DNA from: a virus
Virus record (IMG/VR): IMGVR_UViG_3300025141_000504
Coordinates: 1-30,180 of that record
Length of the DNA: 30,180 bases
Direction: 5' to 3' (one strand)
Both the position numbers and the translations under genes were made by a program. A model generated the notes under the pieces. It saw only the letters and a program-made list of their open reading frames with translations, made no database searches and had not been told where the DNA came from. Shown here in pieces: positions 2,269 to 30,180 of this stretch (the stretch's first letter is position 1; every line of letters starts with the position of its first letter).

Positions 2269-4260
2269 ATGTCTAAGAAATTTACATTAGATCAGCTTAC
2301 AGAGGGTATTCGTCAAAGAGACGTAGGCCGGCAGTCAGCTCTTCTAACTGAAAAGTGGACACGCACTGGACTCCTCCGTGGTATGGATGACACAGGTCGC
2401 GAGAATATGTCTCGTCTCCTGGAGAACCAGGCAGCTCAGCTTCTTCGCGAGCAGTCTTCCATCGGTGGCGGAAATGCAGGCACCACTTCATCTGGCGACC
2501 TTCGTGGTTTCACGAATATCGCTTTCCCAATCGTTCGTCGCGTCTTCGGAGGCCTAGTAGCCAATGATCTCGTTTCGATTCAACCAATGAGCCTTCCATC
2601 TGGTCTGCTTTTCTACCTCGATTATACCTACGGTGATAACGTTGGTGGTGATGCTAACACACAGACTGGTGCTGAAGGTTCACTCTCACAGCAAACCTAC
2701 ACTAAGGGACAATCAATCTATAACCTTCCAACTGGAAAGGGAATAAGATCTGGCTCTGATGCTGTTGGTGGTCCTTATGACCTTGCTGGAACAGCTTATA
2801 CTAGAGTCAACACTCAGTTTGCTGCTGGTGAACTTGTTCTTCTCGCTTCAGGCGCTCACGGTAATGATGGAACCTTTGCTGGTGGTAGTCACATGGTTGC
2901 ATCCGGTGCAGACGGCAAGCTTCTTCAGTTTGATCCTCAAATTACAACAATGATTGAAGATGCTGCATCTACTAACGGTTGGACCCCTAGCGGTGAAGGT
3001 CTTTTCCAGGCACTAATCTGGGATGCTAATAACTTCCCTGCCAAGATGGACTTCACAGCTGTTAAGGAAGTTGGCTTGATTGCTATTGATACAACTCCCT
3101 GTTTAACAAAGGCACCAATGGTGGTTAACGGAAAAGGGCTTGCTGGGCTTGCTCCAGTTCACGTCATCTCCGCTTCTGATGGTATTCAGGGTGGAAGTGT
3201 TGTCAACATTCGACGTCTTAACCAGCTTGGAACTTGGGATGGCTCAAAGTTCACACCCGATCCGATGGTCACTAGATCAACTTCGAATGCTGCTCTATTG
3301 ACAATTATTTCAGGTACATATAACATGGACCTTGGCAGTACTTCTCGCGTCGGAATCATGAATGGTTTCTCTGGATCATACGTCCAGGCACCTACTCTTG
3401 ATACAGACTCTGATGGTTCAACCCTTACGATTCCAACTTTTGAATCCAACTTTGAGACATCTCCTCAAATTCAGATTCCAGAGATTGACATCAAGATTGA
3501 ATCAATTGCTGTTACAGCTGAGACTCGTAAGCTTCGTGCTCGCTGGTCACCAGAACTCGCACAGGATCTTAACGCATACCACAGCCTTGACGCTGAGGTT
3601 GAGTTGACCCAGATCCTCTCTGAGCAGATTGCTCTAGAGCTTGATCGCGAGATTCTTAATGACCTCCTTACACAGGCTCAGGGTGCTAACTATTACTGGT
3701 CACGTGCTCCAGGCAAGTTCGTTAACAAGAAAACTGGCGCTGTCCAGACTCTAGCTAGTGCACTTCAAACTGGACCTAACTTCACCGGTACAGTTCGTGA
3801 ATGGTATGAGACACTCGTTGAAACAGTAATTGACGTTGCTAATGAGATTCATCGCAAGACTCTTCGCGGTTCTGCAAACTTCATCGTGGTTTCACCAGAT
3901 GTTGCAACTATTCTTGAGGCTTCTGTCCTCTACAAGCCTAGTTACAGCCTCGACGGCCAGGGTCAAGTCGGATCTCCATTCCAGCTTGGTGCAGCTCCCG
4001 TTGGTAGCTTGAGCAATCGTTTCACGGTCTACAAGGATCCATACTTCCCTCGCAACAAGATTCTTGTTGGATACAAGGGCGGTAGCTATCTTGAGACTGG
4101 TTACGTCTACGCTCCTTACGTACCTCTCATTGTCACTCCGACAATCTTCGCTCCCGAAGACTTCACACCCCGCAAGGGCGTGATGACTCGCTACGGTAAG
4201 AAGATGGTTCGTGCTGACTTCTACGGTACAGTTACTTGCATGGATATGGATGTAATCTAA
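2269..4260 (+). CDS. Major capsid protein, gp23-like
   Basis: This protein forms the icosahedral shell. The gp23 signature is clear: residues 81-110 carry FTNIAFPIVRRVFGGLVAND followed by LVSIQPMSLPSGLLFYL, aligning with the T4 segment reading VQPMNSPTGQVFAL. The C-terminus (DPYFPRNKILVGYKGGSY ... APYVPLIVTPTI) is also typical of the family. At 663 aa it is longer than T4 gp23 (521 aa), probably because of inserted surface loops around residues 120-390, which are rich in Gly, Thr and Ser. The N-terminal 61 residues look like the removed propeptide: LRE at 59-61 is about 20 residues before the FTNIAF motif, the same spacing as the T4 cleavage site at Glu65. Arg codons are mostly CGT/CGC, unlike the AGA/AGG used by most other genes here, as expected for a very highly expressed gene. 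AAAGGA precedes the ATG, and a strong terminator follows the stop. Confidence 0.95.
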   Translation: MSKKFTLDQLTEGIRQRDVGRQSALLTEKWTRTGLLRGMDDTGRENMSRLLENQAAQLLREQSSIGGGNAGTTSSGDLRGFTNIAFPIVRRVFGGLVANDLVSIQPMSLPSGLLFYLDYTYGDNVGGDANTQTGAEGSLSQQTYTKGQSIYNLPTGKGIRSGSDAVGGPYDLAGTAYTRVNTQFAAGELVLLASGAHGNDGTFAGGSHMVASGADGKLLQFDPQITTMIEDAASTNGWTPSGEGLFQALIWDANNFPAKMDFTAVKEVGLIAIDTTPCLTKAPMVVNGKGLAGLAPVHVISASDGIQGGSVVNIRRLNQLGTWDGSKFTPDPMVTRSTSNAALLTIISGTYNMDLGSTSRVGIMNGFSGSYVQAPTLDTDSDGSTLTIPTFESNFETSPQIQIPEIDIKIESIAVTAETRKLRARWSPELAQDLNAYHSLDAEVELTQILSEQIALELDREILNDLLTQAQGANYYWSRAPGKFVNKKTGAVQTLASALQTGPNFTGTVREWYETLVETVIDVANEIHRKTLRGSANFIVVSPDVATILEASVLYKPSYSLDGQGQVGSPFQLGAAPVGSLSNRFTVYKDPYFPRNKILVGYKGGSYLETGYVYAPYVPLIVTPTIFAPEDFTPRKGVMTRYGKKMVRADFYGTVTCMDMDVI

Positions 4261-8698: not shown

Positions 8699-8758
8699 TG
8701 TTTTTTGATCTCGTAAGAGATAGTTATACCTGTATAGAGTAGAACAGGAGATTTGTCA

Positions 8759-11700
8759 ATGGCTGAGCAGATATTTAAATCACCCGGCTTCTTCGAAAGA
8801 GAAATAGACCTATCACAAACTCAAACTTCGGTCTCCGGAGTTCCAGCTGGAATTGTCGGTACAGCACAGATGGGTCCAGCATTCGTACCGGTTACTGTCG
8901 GATCTTTTGTAGATTTTGAGAATAGATTTGGATCACTTGATCCGGACTTATTTGGACCTTACGCGGTTAAAGAGTTTTTGAATAACAGGACAGCACTAAC
9001 TTATGTTAGAGTATTGGGTGCGGGCGCAAATATAAAAAATTCAGATATTGAGACAACCCTCGTCGCAGACACTGTCCGGGGCGCTGGTTTTGTAATAGAG
9101 GGAACTTTGCCCGCCGATGGCCACTTGCCAGAGGATGGACGTCTAAACGGATCCTTGACATTCCTGGTTGCAAGACACTATGTCTCTGCCTCAGAGGCAG
9201 TAGGATATCCGATCTTTACTGATAATGATTCCACACCGCTGAGCCTCAACACAGTCAATCTTGTTCGCGGAATGATAATGCCCGCATCAGGGACAAGAAT
9301 TCAAATTTTAACTTATGCGTCTGCAACTTTTGGAACTACACTCTCGACAAATAACGATTCTGCATCACCCAATAGTGATGGTCTTTTTAAGCTAGTCATA
9401 TCTTCTTCTGCTGGTTCCAGTTTTGGTTCAACAGATGGGTATCCCGGGGTCAAAGTTCTAACAGCATCTTTAGATCCAGCTCATCCTGCATATATCGCTA
9501 ATGTTCTCAATACTGATCCAGAACAGTTTCAGAAAGAGCAGCATCTTCTTTATGCTGATTTTGCTGTTGAGAAAGAAATAGCTGAGGTTGATAGAGGCTC
9601 TACAGCTAGGCTGTGGGCTGTTAAATCAGGTTCAGTAGGCCTCACCTCAGGATCTATTGCAGGCTCTAGTAATTGCGGATTAGGTTCTAGTGTTAGTTTT
9701 AATAACCTCTACGGAAGATTTGATACAAGATATAAAACACCTACAACAACAATGTTTATCTCTCAGATGTTTGGCGTGGATGAATATGATCTCTTCAGGG
9801 TTGAGACAATTTCCGATGGTGCAGTTGCAAATACAAAGTTTAAGATCTCAATAAGGGATATTAAGAAGTCAGCAGATCCAGGAGCTGATCCGTATGGAAC
9901 ATTTACTCTTGAAGTTAGAGATTTTAACGATAGTGATACAAATCCACAAGTCCTAGAAAGGTATGGAAATTGCTCATTAAACCCGCAAAGCGATAATTAT
10001 GTTTCTAAGCTGGTCGGTGATTATCATGCTTATTATAATTTTGACTCTTCAATAACTGCAGAACAAAAAGTTATTGTAACTGGAAAATATCCAAATATCT
10101 CGAGAAGAATTAGAATTAAGGCATCTGGCCCACTAGAAGAGGGGCTTGTTCCGCCAAGCGCGCTTCCATTCGGATTTAGAGGCCTTCCTTCACTCAAGAC
10201 CAATGATACTTTAACAGACGGCCCAATAGCACTAAAAGGGATAGCTGCTCCCGCGGGAACTACTCGCAGGCTTACAATGACACTTCCCGCCGGTGCACTA
10301 AAAACAAGCATGCCGTCCACACAAGATGCAGTTGGTAATATATCAGGATCTATAGTTCCGCCGGTTCCCATGAGATTCAAGTGTACACGCGGTGCCGTTA
10401 AAACTTCTGCAGGATTCCTTGGTGAGCCAGGATCGCTAGAGGAGGCTGACTCGCGGTTTTACTGGGGAGTTAAGTTTGAAAGGCTAGCAGTTTCAGGCAA
10501 TATATATAGTAATACTATTTATACATCAAACCTTGGACAAGATCCTAACAGACTAATAACAGCATACTCAAGACTACTTGGAATTCAAAAGCTTGATGTG
10601 TTTACCACAGGATCCGGTGCTGATAAATTCAACAATAATAAGTTCACTCTTTCAAGAGTTGCACTTTATAATAGTACTGGATCTGCAACCTCTGTTACAA
10701 ATGCAGTCATATCACAGGTAACGGGCTCCGTTTCAGATCATATGCTACAAGCAGCGTATATAAGAGACGGTGTTATCGATCCTACATGGTACACTGTTGC
10801 TGACAATACAAGATCGCCTGATTTTCAAAGATTAACGTTTGGATCGCTAGCTGCACTTACATCGTCTGTTTCTTTCAATAGATTTAGTGATTACACCAAG
10901 TTTACTAATATGATGTACGGCGGGTTTGATGGTCTGAACATTCTAGACTTCAATATGGCAAACATGGATGATAAATCAACGTCAGCCGATGCAGGTGGTT
11001 TAGCAACCGGTCTAAATCTAGATATTGGTCTAAAATATACAGCAAATGCATTTGGAAAAGGTCCGACAAATGCTGCAATTCACTCTTATAAGACAGCAGC
11101 AAAGATATTAACTTCTGATGTTAGCTCTAGGGTCAACATTATTGCAATCCCGGGAATTAGAGATACAGCATTATCAGATTACGTAATGCTAAGATTAAAA
11201 ACTTTCGGAAGAGCTTTCTATGTAATGGATATTCCATCATATGATGCAGGCGGTCTACGACTCTTTGCCGATAGCGAGAATTCTCCCAATGTTGAGAAAA
11301 CTGCAAACAAGCTAGCAGGAAGGGGAATTGATAATAACTACGTTGCAACATATTTCCCGGATGTGACTATATTCGATGCAACTAACAATCGCCCTGTTAG
11401 GGTGCCTTCGTCAGTTGCTGCAATTGGTGCACTTGGCTATAATGATAACGTATCATACCCGTGGTTTGCACCGGCAGGATTTAATAGAGGTTCACTAGGA
11501 TTTGTATCAAACCTTGGTGTAAGATTAAATCAGGCAGATAGAGATTATTTATACGAAAATAGAATCAATCCAATTGCTTCATTCCCATCAGCTGGTTTTG
11601 TAATATTCGGACAGAAGACTCTGCAGGTAATGAAAAGTTCTCTCGATAGAGTCAATGTTAGAAGAATGTTACTTGAGGTTAAAAGAGTAGTAAGTGATGT

Positions 11701-11959
11701 TGCAACAAATCTAGTATTTGAGCAAAATACCCCCGCAACCCGAGCAAGATTTGTAGCAGAGGTAGTACCTCTACTTTCCAATATTCAAGCTCAACAAGGA
11801 ATCGATCAGTTTAGAGTTGTTATGGATTCTTCAAATAACACCAATGAAGATATTATCAATAACATCTTAAATGGTCGGATAGTTATGGTTCCGACAAGGG
11901 CAGTAGAGTTTATAGCTATAGACTTTATTATCACAAATGCAGGTGTAGATTTTGTTTAA
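8759..11959 (+). CDS. Tail sheath protein, copy 1 (gp18-like)
   Basis: This is a contractile sheath subunit. The N-terminal sheath motif reads FKSPGFFEREIDLSQ, then GVPAGIVGTAQMGPAFVPVT (residues 5-45) and YVRVLGAG (about residues 82-89). The C-terminal sheath domain (about residues 898-1066) includes VNVRRMLLEVKRVVSDVATN and ends with PTRAVEFIAIDFIITNAG. The protein is about 1066 aa against 659 aa for T4 gp18, so the middle must hold extra surface domains (roughly residues 100-330 and 480-700). I choose ATG at 8759 because AGGAG at 8746-8750 lies eight bases upstream; a TTG six bases earlier is in frame but closer to the ribosome site than usual. It is followed by a second full-length sheath gene, which is not the case in T4. 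Confidence 0.92.
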   Translation: MAEQIFKSPGFFEREIDLSQTQTSVSGVPAGIVGTAQMGPAFVPVTVGSFVDFENRFGSLDPDLFGPYAVKEFLNNRTALTYVRVLGAGANIKNSDIETTLVADTVRGAGFVIEGTLPADGHLPEDGRLNGSLTFLVARHYVSASEAVGYPIFTDNDSTPLSLNTVNLVRGMIMPASGTRIQILTYASATFGTTLSTNNDSASPNSDGLFKLVISSSAGSSFGSTDGYPGVKVLTASLDPAHPAYIANVLNTDPEQFQKEQHLLYADFAVEKEIAEVDRGSTARLWAVKSGSVGLTSGSIAGSSNCGLGSSVSFNNLYGRFDTRYKTPTTTMFISQMFGVDEYDLFRVETISDGAVANTKFKISIRDIKKSADPGADPYGTFTLEVRDFNDSDTNPQVLERYGNCSLNPQSDNYVSKLVGDYHAYYNFDSSITAEQKVIVTGKYPNISRRIRIKASGPLEEGLVPPSALPFGFRGLPSLKTNDTLTDGPIALKGIAAPAGTTRRLTMTLPAGALKTSMPSTQDAVGNISGSIVPPVPMRFKCTRGAVKTSAGFLGEPGSLEEADSRFYWGVKFERLAVSGNIYSNTIYTSNLGQDPNRLITAYSRLLGIQKLDVFTTGSGADKFNNNKFTLSRVALYNSTGSATSVTNAVISQVTGSVSDHMLQAAYIRDGVIDPTWYTVADNTRSPDFQRLTFGSLAALTSSVSFNRFSDYTKFTNMMYGGFDGLNILDFNMANMDDKSTSADAGGLATGLNLDIGLKYTANAFGKGPTNAAIHSYKTAAKILTSDVSSRVNIIAIPGIRDTALSDYVMLRLKTFGRAFYVMDIPSYDAGGLRLFADSENSPNVEKTANKLAGRGIDNNYVATYFPDVTIFDATNNRPVRVPSSVAAIGALGYNDNVSYPWFAPAGFNRGSLGFVSNLGVRLNQADRDYLYENRINPIASFPSAGFVIFGQKTLQVMKSSLDRVNVRRMLLEVKRVVSDVATNLVFEQNTPATRARFVAEVVPLLSNIQAQQGIDQFRVVMDSSNNTNEDIINNILNGRIVMVPTRAVEFIAIDFIITNAGVDFV

Positions 11960-11994: not shown

Positions 11995-14900
11995 ATGCCA
12001 GAGAAAATTTATAAAAGCGCAGGGGTTTTCGCAACCGAGACAGATCTCTCCCAGCCTTCACTTCAAGGGCCAACAGGTATACCAGCAGGTGTCATTGGAA
12101 CTTCAACTGAAGGTCCGGCTTTTGTTCCCATTACTGTTGCTACATTTACAGATTTTAAGGCTGTATTTGGAGATACGGATGGTAAGAAATTTGGCCCTAT
12201 GGCTGTCTATACCTTCCTTAACAAAGCAAATGCATTGACCTACGTAAAAGTACTGGGAACAGGTGACGGCAAGAAGAGAGCAACGGCTTCAGGAAAAGTA
12301 AATCGGGCCGGATATACAGTTGGCGGCCAGATGATTCAAGATAACGGAATCGTAGGGGCCAACCCCAAAGCTGCCGCTGGTATTGCCGGCGGTGCTGGTG
12401 GAGCTCCAGCCTTAGGGCGAACTTATATCTTAGGCTGTTTCATGTCAGAATCAGCAGGGTCTACTGTCTTCCAGGAAGCTGGGCTGGTATCAAAAGGTGC
12501 ACTTACGGGCTCGGTGCCCATCGTTAGAGCAATCTTAATGTGCCCTTCTGGCGTCATGCCTCGACTTTCGTGCAGCTTTGCAGTTGGTACCGAGGCTGGA
12601 GGTACCATTCCTAACCACATTACTGCCTCTTCTGGTCCTGCGAACGAAGCGCTCGTCCAGGATGGAAACGGTAAATACATTAAGGGAGGAATGTCCGGAA
12701 CAGTTAATCTAGAGGCCGACACTTTCGTTCTTCTTCTAAATGGCCACAAGGCGACAGCAGCCAGCCCAAATATGATCACAGCCTCGTTCAACTCAACGGA
12801 CTCCTTCTGGCTAGGCTCCAGTGCGGAGATAAACAGAGACCCATACAAGATTCAAGAGAAGGGTCACTATCTTTACTGGCATTCAGATATCAATCCGGCA
12901 TTTGCAGTCGTTACAGGAAGCGGTGTCTTGCCTGACCAGATTTACAAAGACTCAGCTGGAAATCAGTTCGAAAACGCTGCATTTATTACATCAGGCTCGG
13001 CAGGTAGAAATACAGCTGCAATTGGAAAGCCTAACTACGAGTCATTCGAAGAGAGGTTTCAAGCTGCAAGGACTCCATTCTTTATCTCACAAGATTATGG
13101 TGGGACAAAGTATGACCTATTTAGAATTCATGCACGAGGAGATGGAAAAAATCCGGGTGAGAGATACAAGATTTCTATTCAGAGCATATCGCCTAGACCT
13201 GACACAGCTACTAACAAGTACGGAACATTTGAAATCCTTGTTAGAGAGTTTAATGATGGTGATGATTCATTCTCTGCGCTTGAGACATGGGCAGTTACTT
13301 TAGATCCATCTAGCGAGAGGTACATAGGAAGAGTGATTGGAGATCAGTATACTTATTATGATTTCGATCAGTCCCCAGGTAGCCAAAAACTAGTTGTTAA
13401 AGGAAATTTTGCTGGAAACTCATCTAGGATTAGAGTTGAGATACCTCGTGCACTTGAGCTAGGAAGAGTACCAGTGGATGCACTTCCAATGGGCTTCCGC
13501 GGACCAGATCACCTCGTAACTTCCGGTACTAATCCGCTAGCTTCGATTACCGACTACCAGGTGACCGAGGGAGCAGGCTCAGGTTACACTGGCTTTATTC
13601 ACGGATATTCTGCGGCTAATCCGTTCATTAAGAGAGCTGTTGAATTGCCTCTACGTTACAGAAAAGATATTCGAATGGGAATAGGTGCTACTACGTCGAC
13701 TATCACTGAGGTCAATGCAAATGCAAATCTTTTCTGGGGAGTTCAATTCAGAAAGCGTGTAGCAGATAATATTATTACTGATTCATTTGGAGTTGATTCA
13801 CTTCGAAGCTTAAATGAATCAAGCGCTGACTTTGATCTGTCAATGGTGGATAGAACATACTTCTTCCCACAGTTTAATCCAACAGGTTGGAACTTCTCTG
13901 TAGGTAACAATCCCGGTGAAGCAGATTCTGCCGGGACAATTCTTGACTGCGATAGATTTAATAACAATATTTTCACTCTTGAAAGACTTAGGGTCAAGAC
14001 TGGCTCGATTGGAGACATAGCAGATTCTGACATTAAGATGTGGGGAAGTGCTTCATACATTAGAGATGGCAATATCGTCGTTGGAATGGGAATGAGGGCA
14101 CTAAAGGTTAGTGACCTTGTTCAGGATGCAGGAAACCAGCAGTATGCAAAATATTCCGTTCTGATGCAAGGTGGTTTTGACGGTCATGATATCTTTAACA
14201 AGGATAGATCAAAAATGTCATCTGCTGCTTGCAAGAGAGAGATCGATGATGAGCTTAATCAAGGCGGTAAAAGCGGACCTACTATAGCTGCATACAGAAA
14301 AGCAATAGATATTATGGGTGTCAAGTCTGATGTCGAGATTAATCTTCTTGCAATTCCCGGAATAAGGCATTCCAGCGTTACAGATTATGCCATATCAACA
14401 GTTGAAAATCGTTTTGATGCTTTTTATATTATGGATATTGAACAAAGAGACGGATTTAACAAGGTTATGACAGGATCAAAAGATGTAGCAGGGAATGATA
14501 TTATTCCAAGTACAACATATACAGCAGCTGCATTTACATCTCGTGGGCTTGATAGCTCGTTTGCTGGAGCATATTGGCCAGATGTCAAAATCGATATAGG
14601 TGACGGTAAAGGAGTTCAGAGTGCACCAGCTAGTGTTGCAGCTCTCGGCGTAATGTCACAAAACGATGACAGGGGAGAGCCCTGGTTTGCCCCAGCGGGT
14701 TACAATAGAGGTACAGTAGATGCTAGTATTAACGGAACATTATTCCCTCTAGAAAGAGAAGATCTTAATAAGCTTTACGATGTTTCAATAAATCCGCTAG
14801 CTACGTTTGCTGGAAAGAATGCTGTCGTCTGGGGTCAAAAGACACTCCAGGCTAATGCATCAGCACTAGATAGAATTAATGTTAGAAGGCTTCTTATAAA

Positions 14901-15186
14901 TATTCGTAGAAAGGTTAAGGCAATTGCAAATTCTATGCTTTTTGAGCCAAATCGACAGGAAACTCTTGATAGATTTAATGCTCTAGTCAAGCCTATTATG
15001 CAAAAAGTTCAAAATGAACAAGGCGTCGATAGATACAAAGTTATTATTGACACTACAACAACCACGGCAGCGGATATAGAGAACAACACAATTAGGGGCA
15101 AGATATACTTGCAACCTACAAGAACTGCAGAGTTTATTGCGCTTGACTTTACAGTTGCAAACGCTAGTAATTTTGACAGTGTTTAA
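11995..15186 (+). CDS. Tail sheath protein, copy 2 (gp18-like paralogue)
   Basis: This is a second contractile sheath subunit, paralogous to the gene before it. The two share the N-terminal block (IYKSAGVFATETDLSQ, then GIPAGVIGTSTEGPAFVPIT), a central block (FFISQDYGGTKYDLFRI; the other copy has MFISQMFGVDEYDLFRV), a block ending ALPMGFRG against ALPFGFRG, and the C-terminal block (INVRRLLINIRRKVKAIANS ... PTRTAEFIALDFTVANAS). At 1063 aa it is almost the same length, and both ends are intact, so neither copy looks like a decaying duplicate. Between the shared blocks they differ strongly. Bases about 12290-12860 are richer in GC and Gly/Ala codons than the rest and encode a variable domain. 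CGGAG precedes the ATG. The two proteins could form a mixed sheath or sheaths of different segments. Confidence 0.92.
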   Translation: MPEKIYKSAGVFATETDLSQPSLQGPTGIPAGVIGTSTEGPAFVPITVATFTDFKAVFGDTDGKKFGPMAVYTFLNKANALTYVKVLGTGDGKKRATASGKVNRAGYTVGGQMIQDNGIVGANPKAAAGIAGGAGGAPALGRTYILGCFMSESAGSTVFQEAGLVSKGALTGSVPIVRAILMCPSGVMPRLSCSFAVGTEAGGTIPNHITASSGPANEALVQDGNGKYIKGGMSGTVNLEADTFVLLLNGHKATAASPNMITASFNSTDSFWLGSSAEINRDPYKIQEKGHYLYWHSDINPAFAVVTGSGVLPDQIYKDSAGNQFENAAFITSGSAGRNTAAIGKPNYESFEERFQAARTPFFISQDYGGTKYDLFRIHARGDGKNPGERYKISIQSISPRPDTATNKYGTFEILVREFNDGDDSFSALETWAVTLDPSSERYIGRVIGDQYTYYDFDQSPGSQKLVVKGNFAGNSSRIRVEIPRALELGRVPVDALPMGFRGPDHLVTSGTNPLASITDYQVTEGAGSGYTGFIHGYSAANPFIKRAVELPLRYRKDIRMGIGATTSTITEVNANANLFWGVQFRKRVADNIITDSFGVDSLRSLNESSADFDLSMVDRTYFFPQFNPTGWNFSVGNNPGEADSAGTILDCDRFNNNIFTLERLRVKTGSIGDIADSDIKMWGSASYIRDGNIVVGMGMRALKVSDLVQDAGNQQYAKYSVLMQGGFDGHDIFNKDRSKMSSAACKREIDDELNQGGKSGPTIAAYRKAIDIMGVKSDVEINLLAIPGIRHSSVTDYAISTVENRFDAFYIMDIEQRDGFNKVMTGSKDVAGNDIIPSTTYTAAAFTSRGLDSSFAGAYWPDVKIDIGDGKGVQSAPASVAALGVMSQNDDRGEPWFAPAGYNRGTVDASINGTLFPLEREDLNKLYDVSINPLATFAGKNAVVWGQKTLQANASALDRINVRRLLINIRRKVKAIANSMLFEPNRQETLDRFNALVKPIMQKVQNEQGVDRYKVIIDTTTTTAADIENNTIRGKIYLQPTRTAEFIALDFTVANASNFDSV

Positions 15187-23626: not shown

Positions 23627-26600
23627 ATGGGACTAGGAGATACAATTAGAGAATGGTGGACAGCTAGTGCTGAAGGTACTAGTCTGCCCCCAGAGAATAG
23701 GCTTGATTTTGCAGTTAGGGATTTAATTAAATTCTATGCTGTCGACTCTATGAATGTTATCACAAACTATACAGATTATGAAGATGAGTCAGGGCATATT
23801 GGGCTAGATGCTGGAGACATAGCAGAGCTTCAGGAGAATGCAGAAGCATATCAAAAGATTAGATCTATGTTTCAAGATACTAGTTCTGGAGCACTTGGAA
23901 TAGAAGATATTATGTCTGAGCTAGAGGAAAACTGTCTCCCTGCGCTAGGTGAGGATACACTGAAGAGTTTAGTTGCAGTAAAGTTTGAAAAGTGGGCAAA
24001 TTTTAAAGTAAATGAAACTAAGCATAGTGATAAATTTGGTGTCATGGATCAGTGTGGATACCTCGTAGATTCCCCTGTTGGAAAAGATACAGACGTAGAA
24101 CAGGGCCTGAATGAAAAGAGGATACCACCCATGGGCGGAAATGAAGAAGGACCCGCTGACGGTGTAACAAATCCGTATCTTTCAGGAATTATGCTAAACT
24201 CGCCCAGATTATGTCCGGCAAATGCTAGATCAACTGCAGGGTCTATATTCTTTAATTCAATTCCTACACAAGAAATGTCACAATGTGCACCAATTATTGG
24301 AATTGATTTTGTTTCTGAGACAAACTATATTACAGATGGCAGCAGGCTAATGTCACTCTTTGGTTTTACAGGGCGAAATTTTAGAGGAAATACAGTCAAA
24401 GATCCTGGAAAAAATATTGATCTCGAGACTCTTGCAGCAGAAAGAGATTTAGGCTCATGGTGGGACTCTATAGCTGGTGATCGATCTTCTGGTGAAGCGG
24501 TAAACCCAATTTCAGGCCAGGTTGAGGAGTTTGTAAACGAAAGACGAAGAATCTCAGCATCTGGAATTGAACTTTTTCAAGCACCCCAGACTATGAATAA
24601 TGCATCGAGCGGAGAGGGTTTAAATCCTACTGTTCCACTTGCAACACTAACAAGTCTTTCAATTGGCGTTTCCGGTCTGGGTCTTTCTACACTTTGTAAC
24701 AAAACAGCATCGCTAGAGTTTATTTTGCACGACAGATCTCAGATGCGCTTGATTTCGCCTCTTGTCGGTGCCTCAACTTTTGCTGCAACATATTTGAATA
24801 TTGAGTTTGGGTGGTCTCATCCGCAAGCCTCAGCAGCATCATCTGACAATGTCTATGCAAACTTTTTAAATTCTTTGAGATCTAGATCTTCTTATAATAT
24901 TCAAATGGCTGAGACAACAATTCTTGAAGATGGCCAGGTTAGAGTTAGTTTAAAACTAGCGTCTAGAGGTACAACTGAGCTTATTAATCTTCCAGCAGCC
25001 TCTGGAGTAACACATGTTCCCGCATATGTTCTACAGCCGTACCTGGGCCCTCTCACAGAGCAAATTGCTGATAATGTTGATGGGTATAACGGTCTTCAGA
25101 GTAGCGCACAAACAGGCTTGGAAGAGAGAGACTATGCGCCCCTCAAGGCGCTTTCTGAAGCAAGGCTAAAGGAAATTCAAACAGGATATAGTGCACTTAG
25201 TTCAATGACGTCACCTGCAGCACAGATACCGCTTGATAAGTATAGGGAGTTTCTTGAAGAGCTTAGACCTACTGGGGGTGATGGAGAGACAGACCACACA
25301 CGCGCCATTACACGGGGGGTAGAGATTATTAAGGAAATTTATGATTTAGAATCTTCTGGGACTGATGAAGTGTTAACAACTCTTGGTCGACAAATAACAG
25401 AAAAACAACTTCTTCTTAAGTCAATTGATATTTTTGAAGATGGCGGAACAGTCGTAGGGGCATTAGACGAGGCGGCAAATTCTCAACGAGCACAAACACA
25501 GGCTTCAGTCGCAGCATTCACTGCCCTAGCCGGTGCAGGCGCAGCTGGAGAAAGAATCATTGCAGCAATGCAAAAGGCAGATAAAGCACGTGCGCTGGAA
25601 GAGCACAATGCCGGGAGCGATAATCCGAGTCTGGGCTCAGTAATGTTAACATATTTTGGAAGGCCGTTACAGGCTATTGGAAAGTATGATGAAGTCCAGA
25701 TTATATTCTATCCATTAAATGCTCAATCTGGAAAAATGGCAGGTGTAAATCTTGCTAGATTTCCTTTGATTGGTTTTTCTGATTTTATTAATAAAACTAA
25801 TCTGGAAAACCCGAGAATCTCATGTGCTAGCTTTGCCGAAAAACTATTCAGGGATCCTTGCGGCCCAGAAAACGCTGGTCATCCTAACTATGGTCTATCA
25901 GATATTTATGAGATAATTAGCGCAGAGTCGTTAGAAGACATGGAGTCAGAAGATAAAGCTGCAGCACGAGCAAGATTTACAGAAGAAAAAGCCCAAAGAC
26001 TAACTGCAATCTATAATGGCACTTATAGACAGCCAATATTTACAGTCCCTGATTTAAATATATTTACAGAAGTGCTGCCTATGAGAACAAAGGCTGATGT
26101 CAACTCTGGGCTTAAAGAGAGGCAATGCGTTAGAATTCATGTTTATGATGCAAAATCTGGTATACCTGTTGAGGCAGAACTCTTGCAGTCAATGATTACT
26201 TCTGGTCGAGCATGCATAGCTATTGACAATCCTGAAGAATCCGCAGAAGCAGGAGAAAAAGACATTCAGAAACAAACATCGATAGCAGCTTCTGATGCTA
26301 GCTCTGCTCGCGGAAGAGCAATTATAGATAGGGCAGTCACCCAAGGTGTGGTTGAAAAAAGGGACGTCCCTGCATCTGGTGGGGGTCGTGCTCAAATAGT
26401 ATTTGTTAATAGCAGTCCAGCACAGGCAATCAAGGATTCTATAAAATCAATCTATCCACATATTGAATTTGGATCACAGTACACAAATGTTAAAAGTGTT
26501 GGAATGTCTTCTAATACAGGAGGAAGTGTAGGGCAAGTTTTACTTTTAAATTCTATTGAAGCAAGTAGGGAAAGTTTCTCAAGTACGGCACAACCATCAG

Positions 26601-26857
26601 GAGGTCTTGATGATATATTTATTGTTCCAACGAGCGCAACTTTGCGAACTGCTGGGTTTCCTAATGTAAGATATGCTGAGAAATATTATATTGACATGGG
26701 AACTGGTACAACAGCAGATAACTTTTATTATGTAACTGGAATTAATCATACAATAACTCCCGGTAATTTTGAAACAACATTGACAATGACATACAATGGC
26801 TCGGCAACAAATAGATCGCTTAGAAATACAATGACGGCAATAGCAGAAGCAGAATAG
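23627..26857 (+). CDS. Baseplate hub protein, gp27-like
   Basis: It probably forms the central hub on which the tube and spike sit. Support is at two places. Residues about 363-400 carry SLEFILHDRSQMRLISPLVG, then YLNIEFGWSHP, a beta motif found in the tube-like barrels of hub proteins. Residues about 1019-1060 carry YYIDMGTGTTADNFYYVTGI followed by NHTITPGNFETTLTMTYNG, the typical C-terminal strand pair of gp27 and gpD-type hubs. At 1076 aa it is much longer than T4 gp27 (391 aa). Helical charged insertions occur around residues 560-660 and 870-920. No lysozyme or spike repeats are seen, so cell-wall degradation must be encoded elsewhere. The start is nine bases after the stop of the LysM gene, with a weak ribosome site. 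Confidence 0.7.
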   Translation: MGLGDTIREWWTASAEGTSLPPENRLDFAVRDLIKFYAVDSMNVITNYTDYEDESGHIGLDAGDIAELQENAEAYQKIRSMFQDTSSGALGIEDIMSELEENCLPALGEDTLKSLVAVKFEKWANFKVNETKHSDKFGVMDQCGYLVDSPVGKDTDVEQGLNEKRIPPMGGNEEGPADGVTNPYLSGIMLNSPRLCPANARSTAGSIFFNSIPTQEMSQCAPIIGIDFVSETNYITDGSRLMSLFGFTGRNFRGNTVKDPGKNIDLETLAAERDLGSWWDSIAGDRSSGEAVNPISGQVEEFVNERRRISASGIELFQAPQTMNNASSGEGLNPTVPLATLTSLSIGVSGLGLSTLCNKTASLEFILHDRSQMRLISPLVGASTFAATYLNIEFGWSHPQASAASSDNVYANFLNSLRSRSSYNIQMAETTILEDGQVRVSLKLASRGTTELINLPAASGVTHVPAYVLQPYLGPLTEQIADNVDGYNGLQSSAQTGLEERDYAPLKALSEARLKEIQTGYSALSSMTSPAAQIPLDKYREFLEELRPTGGDGETDHTRAITRGVEIIKEIYDLESSGTDEVLTTLGRQITEKQLLLKSIDIFEDGGTVVGALDEAANSQRAQTQASVAAFTALAGAGAAGERIIAAMQKADKARALEEHNAGSDNPSLGSVMLTYFGRPLQAIGKYDEVQIIFYPLNAQSGKMAGVNLARFPLIGFSDFINKTNLENPRISCASFAEKLFRDPCGPENAGHPNYGLSDIYEIISAESLEDMESEDKAAARARFTEEKAQRLTAIYNGTYRQPIFTVPDLNIFTEVLPMRTKADVNSGLKERQCVRIHVYDAKSGIPVEAELLQSMITSGRACIAIDNPEESAEAGEKDIQKQTSIAASDASSARGRAIIDRAVTQGVVEKRDVPASGGGRAQIVFVNSSPAQAIKDSIKSIYPHIEFGSQYTNVKSVGMSSNTGGSVGQVLLLNSIEASRESFSSTAQPSGGLDDIFIVPTSATLRTAGFPNVRYAEKYYIDMGTGTTADNFYYVTGINHTITPGNFETTLTMTYNGSATNRSLRNTMTAIAEAE

Positions 26858-26926: not shown

Positions 26927-28111
26927 ATGCGAATTGTAATTTCTCAAAATGAGATAGGAACAAAAAAACATCTTTCATATGATGGTGTTACATGGTCATG
27001 GGTAGATAGTTTTTCTAATGATGACTTGCTCTGGGGCTTCGATGGTCTTGATAGGGATCTTAAAGATTGTGCATTGGCAGCTCATCTAGAAGTGATAAGC
27101 TTTTATAAAACTCCATGGGGTGTTGCACAAAATCTTGTTCAAAAATCAGGAAATCCTGCATGGCAACAGCTTGTACCCTTTGATGCATGGAAAGAGCATG
27201 TTTCTAGTATCGCTAATCAGCTCTGGTTGTACTTTAAGGATTCAACCAACAGTTACTACATTACAACACTTCTAAGAAATAGAGAGCTTTCTAGACGTAT
27301 TTCAAAATCAGCAATTCATAAAAAAATACTTGATGAAAAAATTTCCAATTCTAAGGATGCGCAACTGTCAGTTTTAAAAAAGTTTTTACCTGACAGATCT
27401 GGCTTTGCGCCTGCTAGCACATACTCATTTTCAAAAACTGTAACAGGAAGAATGACTATAGAATCTGGGCCCAATATATTGACACTAAAGAAGGAGAATA
27501 GGAAAATATTTAAGTCGCATTATCCTGATGGGAAGATATTAGAGATAGATTTACAATCTGCAGAACCCAGGGTTGCGCTCTCACTTTTTGGAAAGTCAGT
27601 ATCCGGGGATGTTTACAGTGATGTATTATCTGCATTGGAATCGAACATATCAAGAGACGCAATTAAAATAGCAACTCTTGCAGCTCTTTATGGTGCATCA
27701 CATCACACTCTAAAATCACATCTTCCTGACAGCATTAGTCCCATTGCTGTTCTAGAGAAGGTAAAGGATTATTTTGGAGTTAGACATATTGAAAAGATGT
27801 TAAATGATCAGCATAAAGAGCTTGGATATATTATTAATACACACGGAAGAAAGATATTCTCTGAATTTCCAAGTCTAAATCACCTAGTTCAATCATCTGC
27901 TGTAGATGTCTCTTTTGATATATTTGAATCACTTCTTGATAGTATTTCAGAATTCAAGATATCTGCTACACCCATGTACTTTATACATGATGCAATTATA
28001 CTTGATGTTGATAGCAATGATATAGAAACACTTAAAGAAATTTGTAAAGACGGGTTTAGATCGCCCGTAACTAAAACGATCTTTCCTGTCAAGATAAAGG
28101 AGATAAATTGA
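26927..28111 (+). CDS. Short family A DNA polymerase (polymerase domain only)
   Basis: It should extend primed DNA. All three family A palm and finger motifs are present. VTGRM at 172-176 matches the TGR motif. Motif A is EIDLQSAEPR with Asp208, Glu213 and Arg215 (E. coli Pol I Asp705, Glu710). Motif B is RDAIKIATLAALYG at 243-256, keeping Arg754, Lys758 and Tyr766 equivalents, with Leu251 at the Pol I Phe762 position. Motif C is IHDA with His354 and Asp355; the usual Glu883 is Ala. Both catalytic aspartates are intact. At 394 aa it is about the size of a Klenow polymerase domain. The first 150 residues contain a thumb-like part and an unassigned region but no 3'-5' exonuclease motifs. It sits after the baseplate genes, outside any replication cluster visible here, and its stop overlaps the start of the HD-domain gene. 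Confidence 0.85.
   Translation: MRIVISQNEIGTKKHLSYDGVTWSWVDSFSNDDLLWGFDGLDRDLKDCALAAHLEVISFYKTPWGVAQNLVQKSGNPAWQQLVPFDAWKEHVSSIANQLWLYFKDSTNSYYITTLLRNRELSRRISKSAIHKKILDEKISNSKDAQLSVLKKFLPDRSGFAPASTYSFSKTVTGRMTIESGPNILTLKKENRKIFKSHYPDGKILEIDLQSAEPRVALSLFGKSVSGDVYSDVLSALESNISRDAIKIATLAALYGASHHTLKSHLPDSISPIAVLEKVKDYFGVRHIEKMLNDQHKELGYIINTHGRKIFSEFPSLNHLVQSSAVDVSFDIFESLLDSISEFKISATPMYFIHDAIILDVDSNDIETLKEICKDGFRSPVTKTIFPVKIKEIN
28096..28103 (+). promoter_or_regulatory. Ribosome binding site fixing a TTG start for the HD gene
   Basis: AAAGGAGA sits inside the end of the polymerase gene, five bases before TTG at 28108, and supports that start over the later ATG at 28126-28134. The TTGA overlap (28108-28111) combines this start with the polymerase stop. 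Confidence 0.65.
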
Positions 28112-28686
28112 CTACACAAATAGAAAGAATGAAATCAAACTGGGAAAAATATAGATCGCTAAGCGAAAAGCTTAAAGATGAAAATATAGATATGCTTCTG
28201 GAGTTTATGGATGAGAGAATATTAATGTGTCCTGCCTCACAAAGGGATAGTGAATATGGCTCAAATCCAGGCGGGCTAGTAGAACATGCACTTAAAGTTG
28301 CGTATGCTATGAAATCTATTAACGAATCACTGGATCTGGGAGTATCTACTACTTCAATTTTAAAAGTAGGTCTGCTACATGAAATTGGAAAGATAGGTGA
28401 TGACGAGACTAGTCTTTTTGTTGAGCAAGATTCTGACTGGCATAGGGAAAAACTTGGACAAAATTACAAATATAGTGAAAATATCCAAAAAATGTCTGTC
28501 TCTCATAGAACCCTGTATCTTTTGCAAAAATTTGGAATTAAACTTACACAGGATGAATGGATCGCAATTCAGATTGCACCCGGATCTCATTATGAAGAAA
28601 ATAGATTCTATGTAAACTCTGAGCCAGGGATAGCAATTCTTTTACAGAAGGCAAAATCTCTTGTAATTCACCAGTCAACCTCATAA
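28108..28686 (+). CDS. HD-domain phosphohydrolase-like protein
   Basis: It is probably a metal-dependent phosphohydrolase or a degenerate relative; the substrate is unknown. The family layout is clear: PASQ...NPGGLVEHALKV with His60, then LLHEIGK with His91-Glu92, where the name-giving pair is usually His-Asp. Next is KYSENIQKMSVSHRTLYLL with His133, then LTQDEWIAIQ and His161. In related phage and bacterial HD proteins that I recall, the later part reads as a GHGEKS-type motif and an Ile-Arg-Trp-His motif; here the first keeps only its His and the second is altered, so activity may be changed. The TTG start is set by AAAGGAGA, and the start overlaps the polymerase stop, so the two proteins are made together. 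Confidence 0.75.
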   Translation: MTTQIERMKSNWEKYRSLSEKLKDENIDMLLEFMDERILMCPASQRDSEYGSNPGGLVEHALKVAYAMKSINESLDLGVSTTSILKVGLLHEIGKIGDDETSLFVEQDSDWHREKLGQNYKYSENIQKMSVSHRTLYLLQKFGIKLTQDEWIAIQIAPGSHYEENRFYVNSEPGIAILLQKAKSLVIHQSTS

Positions 28687-28709: not shown

Positions 28710-30180
28710 ATGACTACAAAAAAGAAAGATTTCATGAAAAAATACGCTAGCAGCGTAAAAAATACTACCAACCAGGATGCAAGGTCAGGTCGCGGAATAG
28801 GAATTCCAGTTGCAGGAGCAATTTTCGGAGGTGACGACTATAAGGAAAAGATAGGTAAAAATAGAACGCCTTGGTATCAAACTGGCGGGAGGCCTTCGAT
28901 GTCTGCAGATGCAGGATGGTCTAGTCTAAATATGTCAAGAGTTAATAAGGGTGAAGATAGAGACCTATATGATTTACAGCATAAAGAAATGTTTCCAGAT
29001 CAAAATATGAAAGAAGAGGATGATCTAGATACTTATGTAGGTAAGTCTTATGAGGATGATAAGATGTCATATTTTAATGAAAATAAAATAGTAAAAAATT
29101 CTAAATATTCTATACTTTGTATCCCAGAAGATCTTTCTGAGCAGTTTGACTTTGATAGAATAGATATGGATACATTTATTCCAGATTCTCTTCAACCAGG
29201 GGTTGACGCTATTGTTGAACGTGGTAGTGAATATGTTTCTGACATTATAGAAAAGGCGAGGGATGTCGGCCAGCCTGTATATGATCTTCTTGCAAGAAAA
29301 GTTGAAGAACTTTCAGGTGACAGTATAGATCCTGGTGCTATTAAAGATATTGCATTGGAAGTTGGAAGAGACTTTCTAGCTCTTACTGCAGCTGGAATTC
29401 CTGTTATTGGAACACCAATTGCTGCCGGATACGTTTTATATAATATAGGAGAGCTTCAGGGAGATAATGATAGAATGAGAAGGGAGTTTGACGAGCTTCT
29501 TGTTAATGGTACAGAAGAAGATATAGTAAATCTTCAAGTTGCTACTGCAGAAACATTTGATGACTATATAGATCTTCTTCAGGCAACTGTCTATCTTATT
29601 CCATTTATAGGAACTGCAAGGGGAGTAGTTGCAGCAGCAGGAAGACTTTTAACAAAGGCAAAGGCACCAGCAGTTGCAAGTACTTTAGGTCTTACAGCAG
29701 GCTCTGTTCTTAAATCTGCAATTAAATCAGAAATACTTCTAAGCCCTGTATTTAAGTTTGCAATTAGTCTTGAAAATACAGATATGACAGATGTTTTTGA
29801 GATTGATAAAACTTATTACTTTGATACTCTATGGGTATCAATAGAAAATCTAGTTGGCGCTGCGGAACTCATTGATGATGCAAATAGACAATTAGCAGAG
29901 TTTAAACAGTCTAATCCCCAGGGTGAATTTAAGTATGATCCGTCAATAGCAGAAATAGACGGAATTAATCTAGATAGTGCTCAATCGCGACTTGTTAGCA
30001 ACAATTATGACTCTGTCATATCTGATCTATTGAATAATATTGAAGAAAGACTTGCCAACGGAGTAGATACAGAGTTCTCAGGTATTTTTCCTGAAATACA
30101 TGGAGCATCACAAATTATGGAGAAAAAAATGAATGTAAACCGAAAACTTCTTTCTGATTTAATAAAAGAGGTAATTTTAG
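28710..30180 (+). CDS. Large protein of unknown function with hydrophobic segments (3' end outside window)
   Basis: The frame is open from ATG at 28710 to the window end (490 codons, no stop). I do not recognise it. The N-terminus is basic (MTTKKKDFMKKYASSV) and Gly-rich, followed by an acidic region (KEEDDLDTYVGKSYEDDKMS). Residues about 219-248 (RDFLALTAAGIPVIGTPIAA) and about 293-325 (VYLIPFIGTARGVVAAAG) are hydrophobic and Gly/Ala-rich, like membrane-active hairpins in some large virion proteins. Starts at 28710 and 28734 are both possible; neither has a strong ribosome site. Near the right edge is MNVNRKLLSDLIKEVIL, an amphipathic helix of a type that I have often seen at protein ends in marine phages. 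A structural or ejected protein is plausible, not shown. Confidence 0.7.
   Translation, partial: MTTKKKDFMKKYASSVKNTTNQDARSGRGIGIPVAGAIFGGDDYKEKIGKNRTPWYQTGGRPSMSADAGWSSLNMSRVNKGEDRDLYDLQHKEMFPDQNMKEEDDLDTYVGKSYEDDKMSYFNENKIVKNSKYSILCIPEDLSEQFDFDRIDMDTFIPDSLQPGVDAIVERGSEYVSDIIEKARDVGQPVYDLLARKVEELSGDSIDPGAIKDIALEVGRDFLALTAAGIPVIGTPIAAGYVLYNIGELQGDNDRMRREFDELLVNGTEEDIVNLQVATAETFDDYIDLLQATVYLIPFIGTARGVVAAAGRLLTKAKAPAVASTLGLTAGSVLKSAIKSEILLSPVFKFAISLENTDMTDVFEIDKTYYFDTLWVSIENLVGAAELIDDANRQLAEFKQSNPQGEFKYDPSIAEIDGINLDSAQSRLVSNNYDSVISDLLNNIEERLANGVDTEFSGIFPEIHGASQIMEKKMNVNRKLLSDLIKEVIL

Follow-up and report, generated by a model that had tools for sequence, protein, structure and literature searches.

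The window analyzed here, a virus record of 30,180 nt (IMGVR_UViG_3300025141_000504 in IMG/VR) of T4-like, marine type, carries an ORF that, judged by its sequence, is an intact family A DNA polymerase without an exonuclease domain (short PolA). It is best read, with a probability of roughly 0.6, as an accessory polymerase of the Pol I type that would serve in gap filling or repair, with the 5' nuclease supplied by a separate gene of the same block. In Far-T4-like phages the short PolA would thus be a family A polymerase other than the replicase, predicted to be catalytically competent from the residues it has kept, and probably a helper or gap-filling enzyme as opposed to the main copier. In its relatives a DnaE-like, bacterial-type polymerase evidently copies the genome.

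Sequence and Predicted Fold of the Short PolA

The ORF starts with ATG and has no internal stop codons. The match to the Pfam family DNA_pol_A (PF00476, E = 1.7e-7) scores 31 bits, slightly short of the 34.3 bits that the curated threshold demands and that most of the relatives reach, and the PHROG match is to DNA polymerase (4e-16). The AlphaFold2 model, built on a 60-sequence alignment, has a pLDDT of 95.0 and a pTM of 0.91, with Bst, Klenow, and Taq Pol I as the top PDB matches. Alignment with E. coli Pol I equates D208 with D705, E213 with E710, R243 with R754, K247 with K758, L251 with F762, Y255 with Y766, Q322 with Q849, H354 with H881, D355 with D882, and A356 with E883. Motifs A, B, and C, containing the equivalents of D705, K758, and D882, together with the palm-fingers-thumb fold place the protein in family A. 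A sequence-only reading of the window had described a family A polymerase of 394 residues with intact motifs A, B, and C, both catalytic aspartates, leucine at the position of Phe762, and alanine replacing the motif C glutamate; Pfam, PHROG, the alignment, and the model bear out the polymerase assignment, and the alignment confirms each of the residues. The features of the window are collected in Table 1.

Table 1. Features of the window in and around the short PolA gene
Feature	Position	Strand	Basis
Exonuclease-less short family A DNA polymerase, 394 aa	26927..28111	+	ORF, Pfam, PHROG, alignment, AlphaFold2
Small N-terminal domain, residues 1-84, no exonuclease fold	26927..27178	+	Profile comparison, separate model
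Motif A, D208 (= D705) to E213 (= E710)	27548..27565	+	E. coli Pol I alignment
Motif B, R243, K247, L251 (= F762), Y255	27653..27691	+	E. coli Pol I alignment
Leu251 codon, E. coli position 762	27677..27679	+	E. coli Pol I alignment
Motif C, H354-D355-A356, HDA in place of HDE	27986..27994	+	E. coli Pol I alignment
Gp23-type major capsid protein, query for relatives	2269..4260	+
Upstream gene, 1076 aa, in baseplate/tail gene cluster (putative role, from position)	23627..26857	+
HD-superfamily protein, 192 aa; TTG start overlaps polymerase stop	28108..28686	+
Gene X, cut at window end	28710..30180	+

The model suggests that the polymerase comprises the thumb, palm, and fingers of Pol I plus a small new N-terminal domain. 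The absence of a 3'-5' exonuclease, claimed from the sequence alone, is upheld by three comparisons. The window polymerase has no Pfam match to a 3'-5' exonuclease domain, profile-profile comparison with exonuclease domains is not significant (probability 0.5%), and the N-terminal 84 residues modelled alone (pLDDT 88) correspond to no PDB fold at E <= 0.001; the structure prediction proposed earlier for this part of the protein returned no exonuclease fold. A vestigial N-terminal exonuclease was rejected, as the resemblance at residues 42-61 is not significant and the predicted fold is without a match. Loss of an exonuclease domain by frameshift or sequencing error, a possibility the sequence-only reading had itself raised, was likewise rejected because well-covered relatives share the length (about 390-410 residues in every such IMG/VR relative read) and the upstream gene. 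Only 70 bp separate the end of the upstream gene from the polymerase start codon, and the homologues begin and end alike, which shows that no domain has been lost to a frameshift. The short length of the window polymerase reflects neither truncation nor faulty sequencing.

Bacterial Pol I (Klenow, Bst fragment) shares with the short PolA family the thumb, palm, and fingers, the catalytic residues, and the occurrence alongside a family C replicase and a 5' nuclease. The differences are substantial, with the short PolA family having a new N-terminal domain, Leu or Ile at 762, Ala at 883, and shortened fingers. The exonuclease domain carried within the same protein by Klenow- and T7-type PolA is lacking, and the 5' nuclease, which is fused in bacterial Pol I, is encoded on its own in the relatives, a few kb downstream of the polymerase. 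T7-type enzymes (T7 gp5, cyanopodovirus Pol) are also phage-encoded family A polymerases with shared motifs, but T7 gp5 is a replicase with its own exonuclease, whereas in the phages with short PolA the replicase is evidently another gene. HoLaMa, an engineered Klenow fragment without the exonuclease domain, is likewise a single-domain family A polymerase without proofreading and is reported to be folded and active, indicating that an exonuclease-less layout can be active (PMC6457538). Unlike the natural and widespread short PolA, HoLaMa is artificial and contains eleven mutations introduced mainly to improve stability and solubility (PMC6457538).

Conservation and Gene Neighborhood

Entry to the family was gained through the HD neighbor and the capsid protein, a single-protein search with short exact patterns having matched nothing in IMG/VR. 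Profile search of IMG/VR identifies at least 282 stretches or loci encoding candidate relatives of the short PolA. Among 80 non-redundant members, which include the protein of Microcystis phage Mel-JY01, D705, K758, Q849, and D882 are invariant, E710, R754, and H881 are each kept in 79, and Y766 is present in 78 with Phe in the other two. Position 762 is Leu in 50 members, Ile in 26, Phe in 3, and Met in 1, and position 883 is Ala in 76/80. The family members form a single clade in the tree (support 0.85), with the short PolAs of Flavobacterium phage immuto and Mel-JY01 as sister (0.95). Comparison with the nearest relative gives a dN/dS of about 0.11, suggestive of purifying selection on the window polymerase, at a dS of 1.7 that is high and near saturation. 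A single cellular homologue was found, in a Halobacteriovorax MAG; the 109-kb contig (L240) binned there carries the same gene block, which may hint at the host or result from faulty binning. One short PolA (L129 in G027) has an in-frame TAG and a split match that may reflect recoding, a pseudogene, or a sequencing error.

The sequence-only reading had placed the gene in a T4-like structural region, and this needs correction: it lies where the baseplate genes give way to a replication-recombination block. The upstream neighbor is the large baseplate-region gene in 85/93 loci, the other 8 having a contig edge at this position, and the HD-superfamily gene is the next mapped gene downstream in 86/93. 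The window itself extends 2 kb past the polymerase, through the HD gene and into gene X. In the 160-kb contig of a relative (G002), gene X is followed by a gp32-like SSB, RecA, FEN, DnaB, and RNR, and Pfam confirms the identities of the block genes. The order pol-HD-SSB-RecA-FEN-DnaB(-RNR) is conserved on one strand in about 80 loci, as far as the contigs reach. The polymerase, following the baseplate gene, opens a conserved block in which it is succeeded by the HD protein, gp32-like SSB, RecA/UvsX, FEN-type 5' nuclease, DnaB, and ribonucleotide reductase. An ATP-dependent DNA ligase (PF01068) was found in only 1 of 11 records searched; as the maturation of Okazaki fragments would require a ligase, one from the host or of another type would have to serve.

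Several other features of these loci were observed. In the window HD-superfamily protein the canonical HD doublet reads HE (residues 91-92), and many other positions are strongly conserved across 74 relatives. The RecA gene is in two pieces at L181 (7620-10333) and L182 (12284-14997), with an insert of ~1.5 kb that is possibly an intron or homing element. The window also contains tandem tail sheath paralogues (8753-11959 and 11995-15186) of 1068 and 1063 residues that are 31% identical over their full length, and at the same place G002 carries a pair of large ORFs with similar lengths and starts.

Replicases Accompanying the Short PolA

A search of close relatives for a family B polymerase and for a lone 3'-5' exonuclease, both proposed in the sequence-only reading, gave largely negative results. 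The family B polymerase (PF00136) is absent from the 20 related records searched, PF01612, sought as a lone proofreader, is in none of the twelve virus contigs searched and occurs in immuto only within a full-length PolA, and a lone DnaQ-type exonuclease (PF00929) is present in 1 of 8 relatives searched. A family C polymerase (PF07733) was detected in all eight of the first-searched contigs of at least 114 kb with E below 1e-51, in most of them with a length of about 1,190 residues, and PHP, palm, finger, and HHH domains are recognized in the G002 protein. A DnaE-like family C polymerase is found in 22 related contigs, on the same strand as the short PolA and 17.5-35 kb downstream of it in 22/22, the distance in G003 (267 kb) fitting only with the contig read as a circle. 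The short PolA is therefore not the only replicase candidate of these phage genomes. Family C genes are lacking, as judged by PF07733 alone, in 18 contigs (including G004, G016, G017, G027, G030, and G032), of which 17 have no more than 18.6 kb of sequence beyond the short PolA; the exception, G049, has 59 kb of downstream sequence and no family C gene. The closest relative, G001, ends 14.6 kb past the polymerase. For the window's own phage, where sequence ends 2 kb after the polymerase, we infer a family C gene.

Three more distantly related phages have a short PolA at the same locus, before SSB-RecA-FEN-DnaB, and a different replicase. The immuto genome has the order short PolA (gp001, 441 aa), two small genes, SSB, RecA, 5'-3' exonuclease, and DnaB, with a separate full-length PolA containing an exonuclease at 37.9-40.2 kb. 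Mel-JY01 has the same genes after its short PolA (WWT39333, annotated "hypothetical"), and its family B polymerase is complete. In the 484-kb phage LR756508 these genes likewise accompany a short PolA, and the family B polymerase gene (L254 38445 to L255 5282) is interrupted several times, possibly by inteins or introns. The Mel-JY01 and LR756508 short PolAs are 27-29% identical to the immuto protein. These proteins differ from the window family in a longer N terminus, Phe at 762, and the substitutions E710H, R754Y, and H881Y; only these three lack E710, R754, and H881, so it is the lineage with a family C replicase that retains the complete catalytic set. LR756508 stands outside the tree but shares the three substitutions and has immuto as its best match. 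The three genomes look like one clade, and the correlation of active site with replicase type therefore counts as a single observation. Rhodothermus phage RM378, also a Far-T4 phage, similarly has polymerase and exonuclease as separate proteins, but the split enzyme is family B (PF03104 exonuclease, PF00136 polymerase); the two genes (L002 21996-22937 and L003 29587-31155) are 57 kb apart, and a search of RM378 for a short PolA found none. No description of this gene combination was found in the accessible (non-subscription) literature, which does not prove its absence.

Role of the Short PolA and Its Implications

In bacteria the replicase belongs to family C, and gap filling and primer replacement fall to Pol I, which has a 5' nuclease of its own. 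By analogy the short PolA would supply the polymerase function of a Pol I divided between two genes, acting with the FEN-type 5' nuclease and the gp32-like SSB in gap filling and RNA-primer replacement, and perhaps extending strands in UvsX-driven recombination, with the DnaE-like family C polymerase encoded downstream copying the genome. We infer both the activity and the gap-filling job from sequence. An accessory polymerase is the simplest reading because the short PolA stays beside SSB, RecA, FEN, and DnaB while the replicase family differs. Points against it are the exception of G049, the presumed nature of the family C gene in the window phage, the replacement of E883 by Ala, the rarity of PF01068 ligases in the records searched, and the dependence of the link between active site and replicase type on one sister clade.

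The sequence-only reading had offered two roles, a replicase with a separate proofreading subunit or a repair enzyme, of which the second is favored. As a replicase the short PolA would be the sole family A polymerase of relatives in which family B is absent, but this is highly improbable given that a DnaE-like polymerase is present in all relatives reaching far enough downstream with one exception, that candidates for the proofreading subunit (PF01612 in 0/12 contigs, PF00929 in 1/8) are so scarce, and that the short PolA coexists with other replicases at this locus in other phages. The latter observation, a single locus with three replicase types, also suits a relic of an ancestral replicase displaced by a family C, B, or longer A enzyme and now having a structural or regulatory job, as do the loss of E710, R754, and H881 in immuto, Mel-JY01, and LR756508 and the monophyly of the group (support 0.85-0.95). 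Such a relic is nevertheless unlikely, since the window lineage keeps complete catalytic residues despite great divergence and appears to be under purifying selection. Somewhat less remote, although still doubtful, is a mainly recombination or translesion polymerase recruited by UvsX/RecA and the gp32-like SSB for D-loop extension or low-fidelity copying of lesions. SSB and RecA are indeed neighbors, an exonuclease domain is lacking with no separate one in most relatives searched, and the PDB sequence-profile matches include Pol nu and Pol theta, which are weaker than Pol I. The FEN nuclease and DnaB helicase are, however, equally conserved neighbors that suggest ordinary replication, and the fingers are shortened and without inserts.

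With the short PolA taken as an accessory gap-filling polymerase, it can be proposed, tentatively and at slightly less than even odds, that the two-polymerase scheme of bacteria has been rebuilt by a whole clade of marine T4-type phages from a DnaE-like replicase and a minimal exonuclease-free PolA with a separate FEN, the latter two sharing an operon-like block with gp32, UvsX, and DnaB, the PolA active site being kept alongside a family C replicase and key residues being lost alongside a family B or full-length family A enzyme.

Virioplankton studies treat PolA as the primary replication enzyme and tie Leu762 to SF1/SF2 helicases, a missing ribonucleotide reductase, and temperate phages (PMC6302109; PMC9069017). 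The short PolA family, with L or I at 762 and T4-like structural genes, falls outside the Leu762 virioplankton group (Nasko et al. 2018, PMC6302109), as its relatives have a DnaB-type ring helicase and ribonucleotide reductase. The use of position 762 as an environmental marker, mentioned in the sequence-only reading, is unjustified here with respect to lifestyle. One survey filter retains F, L, or Y at 762 and domain hits of at least 325 residues (PMC9069017), and much of the short PolA family would be dropped because Ile762 and short domains fail it. Surveys that equate PolA with the replicase and read lifestyle from residue 762 would draw wrong conclusions about this group. The short PolA is a natural, widespread, single-domain family A polymerase found in a T4-type replication block that would be run with a family C replicase, at a locus that appears to keep the same accessory polymerase while the replicase comes from different families.
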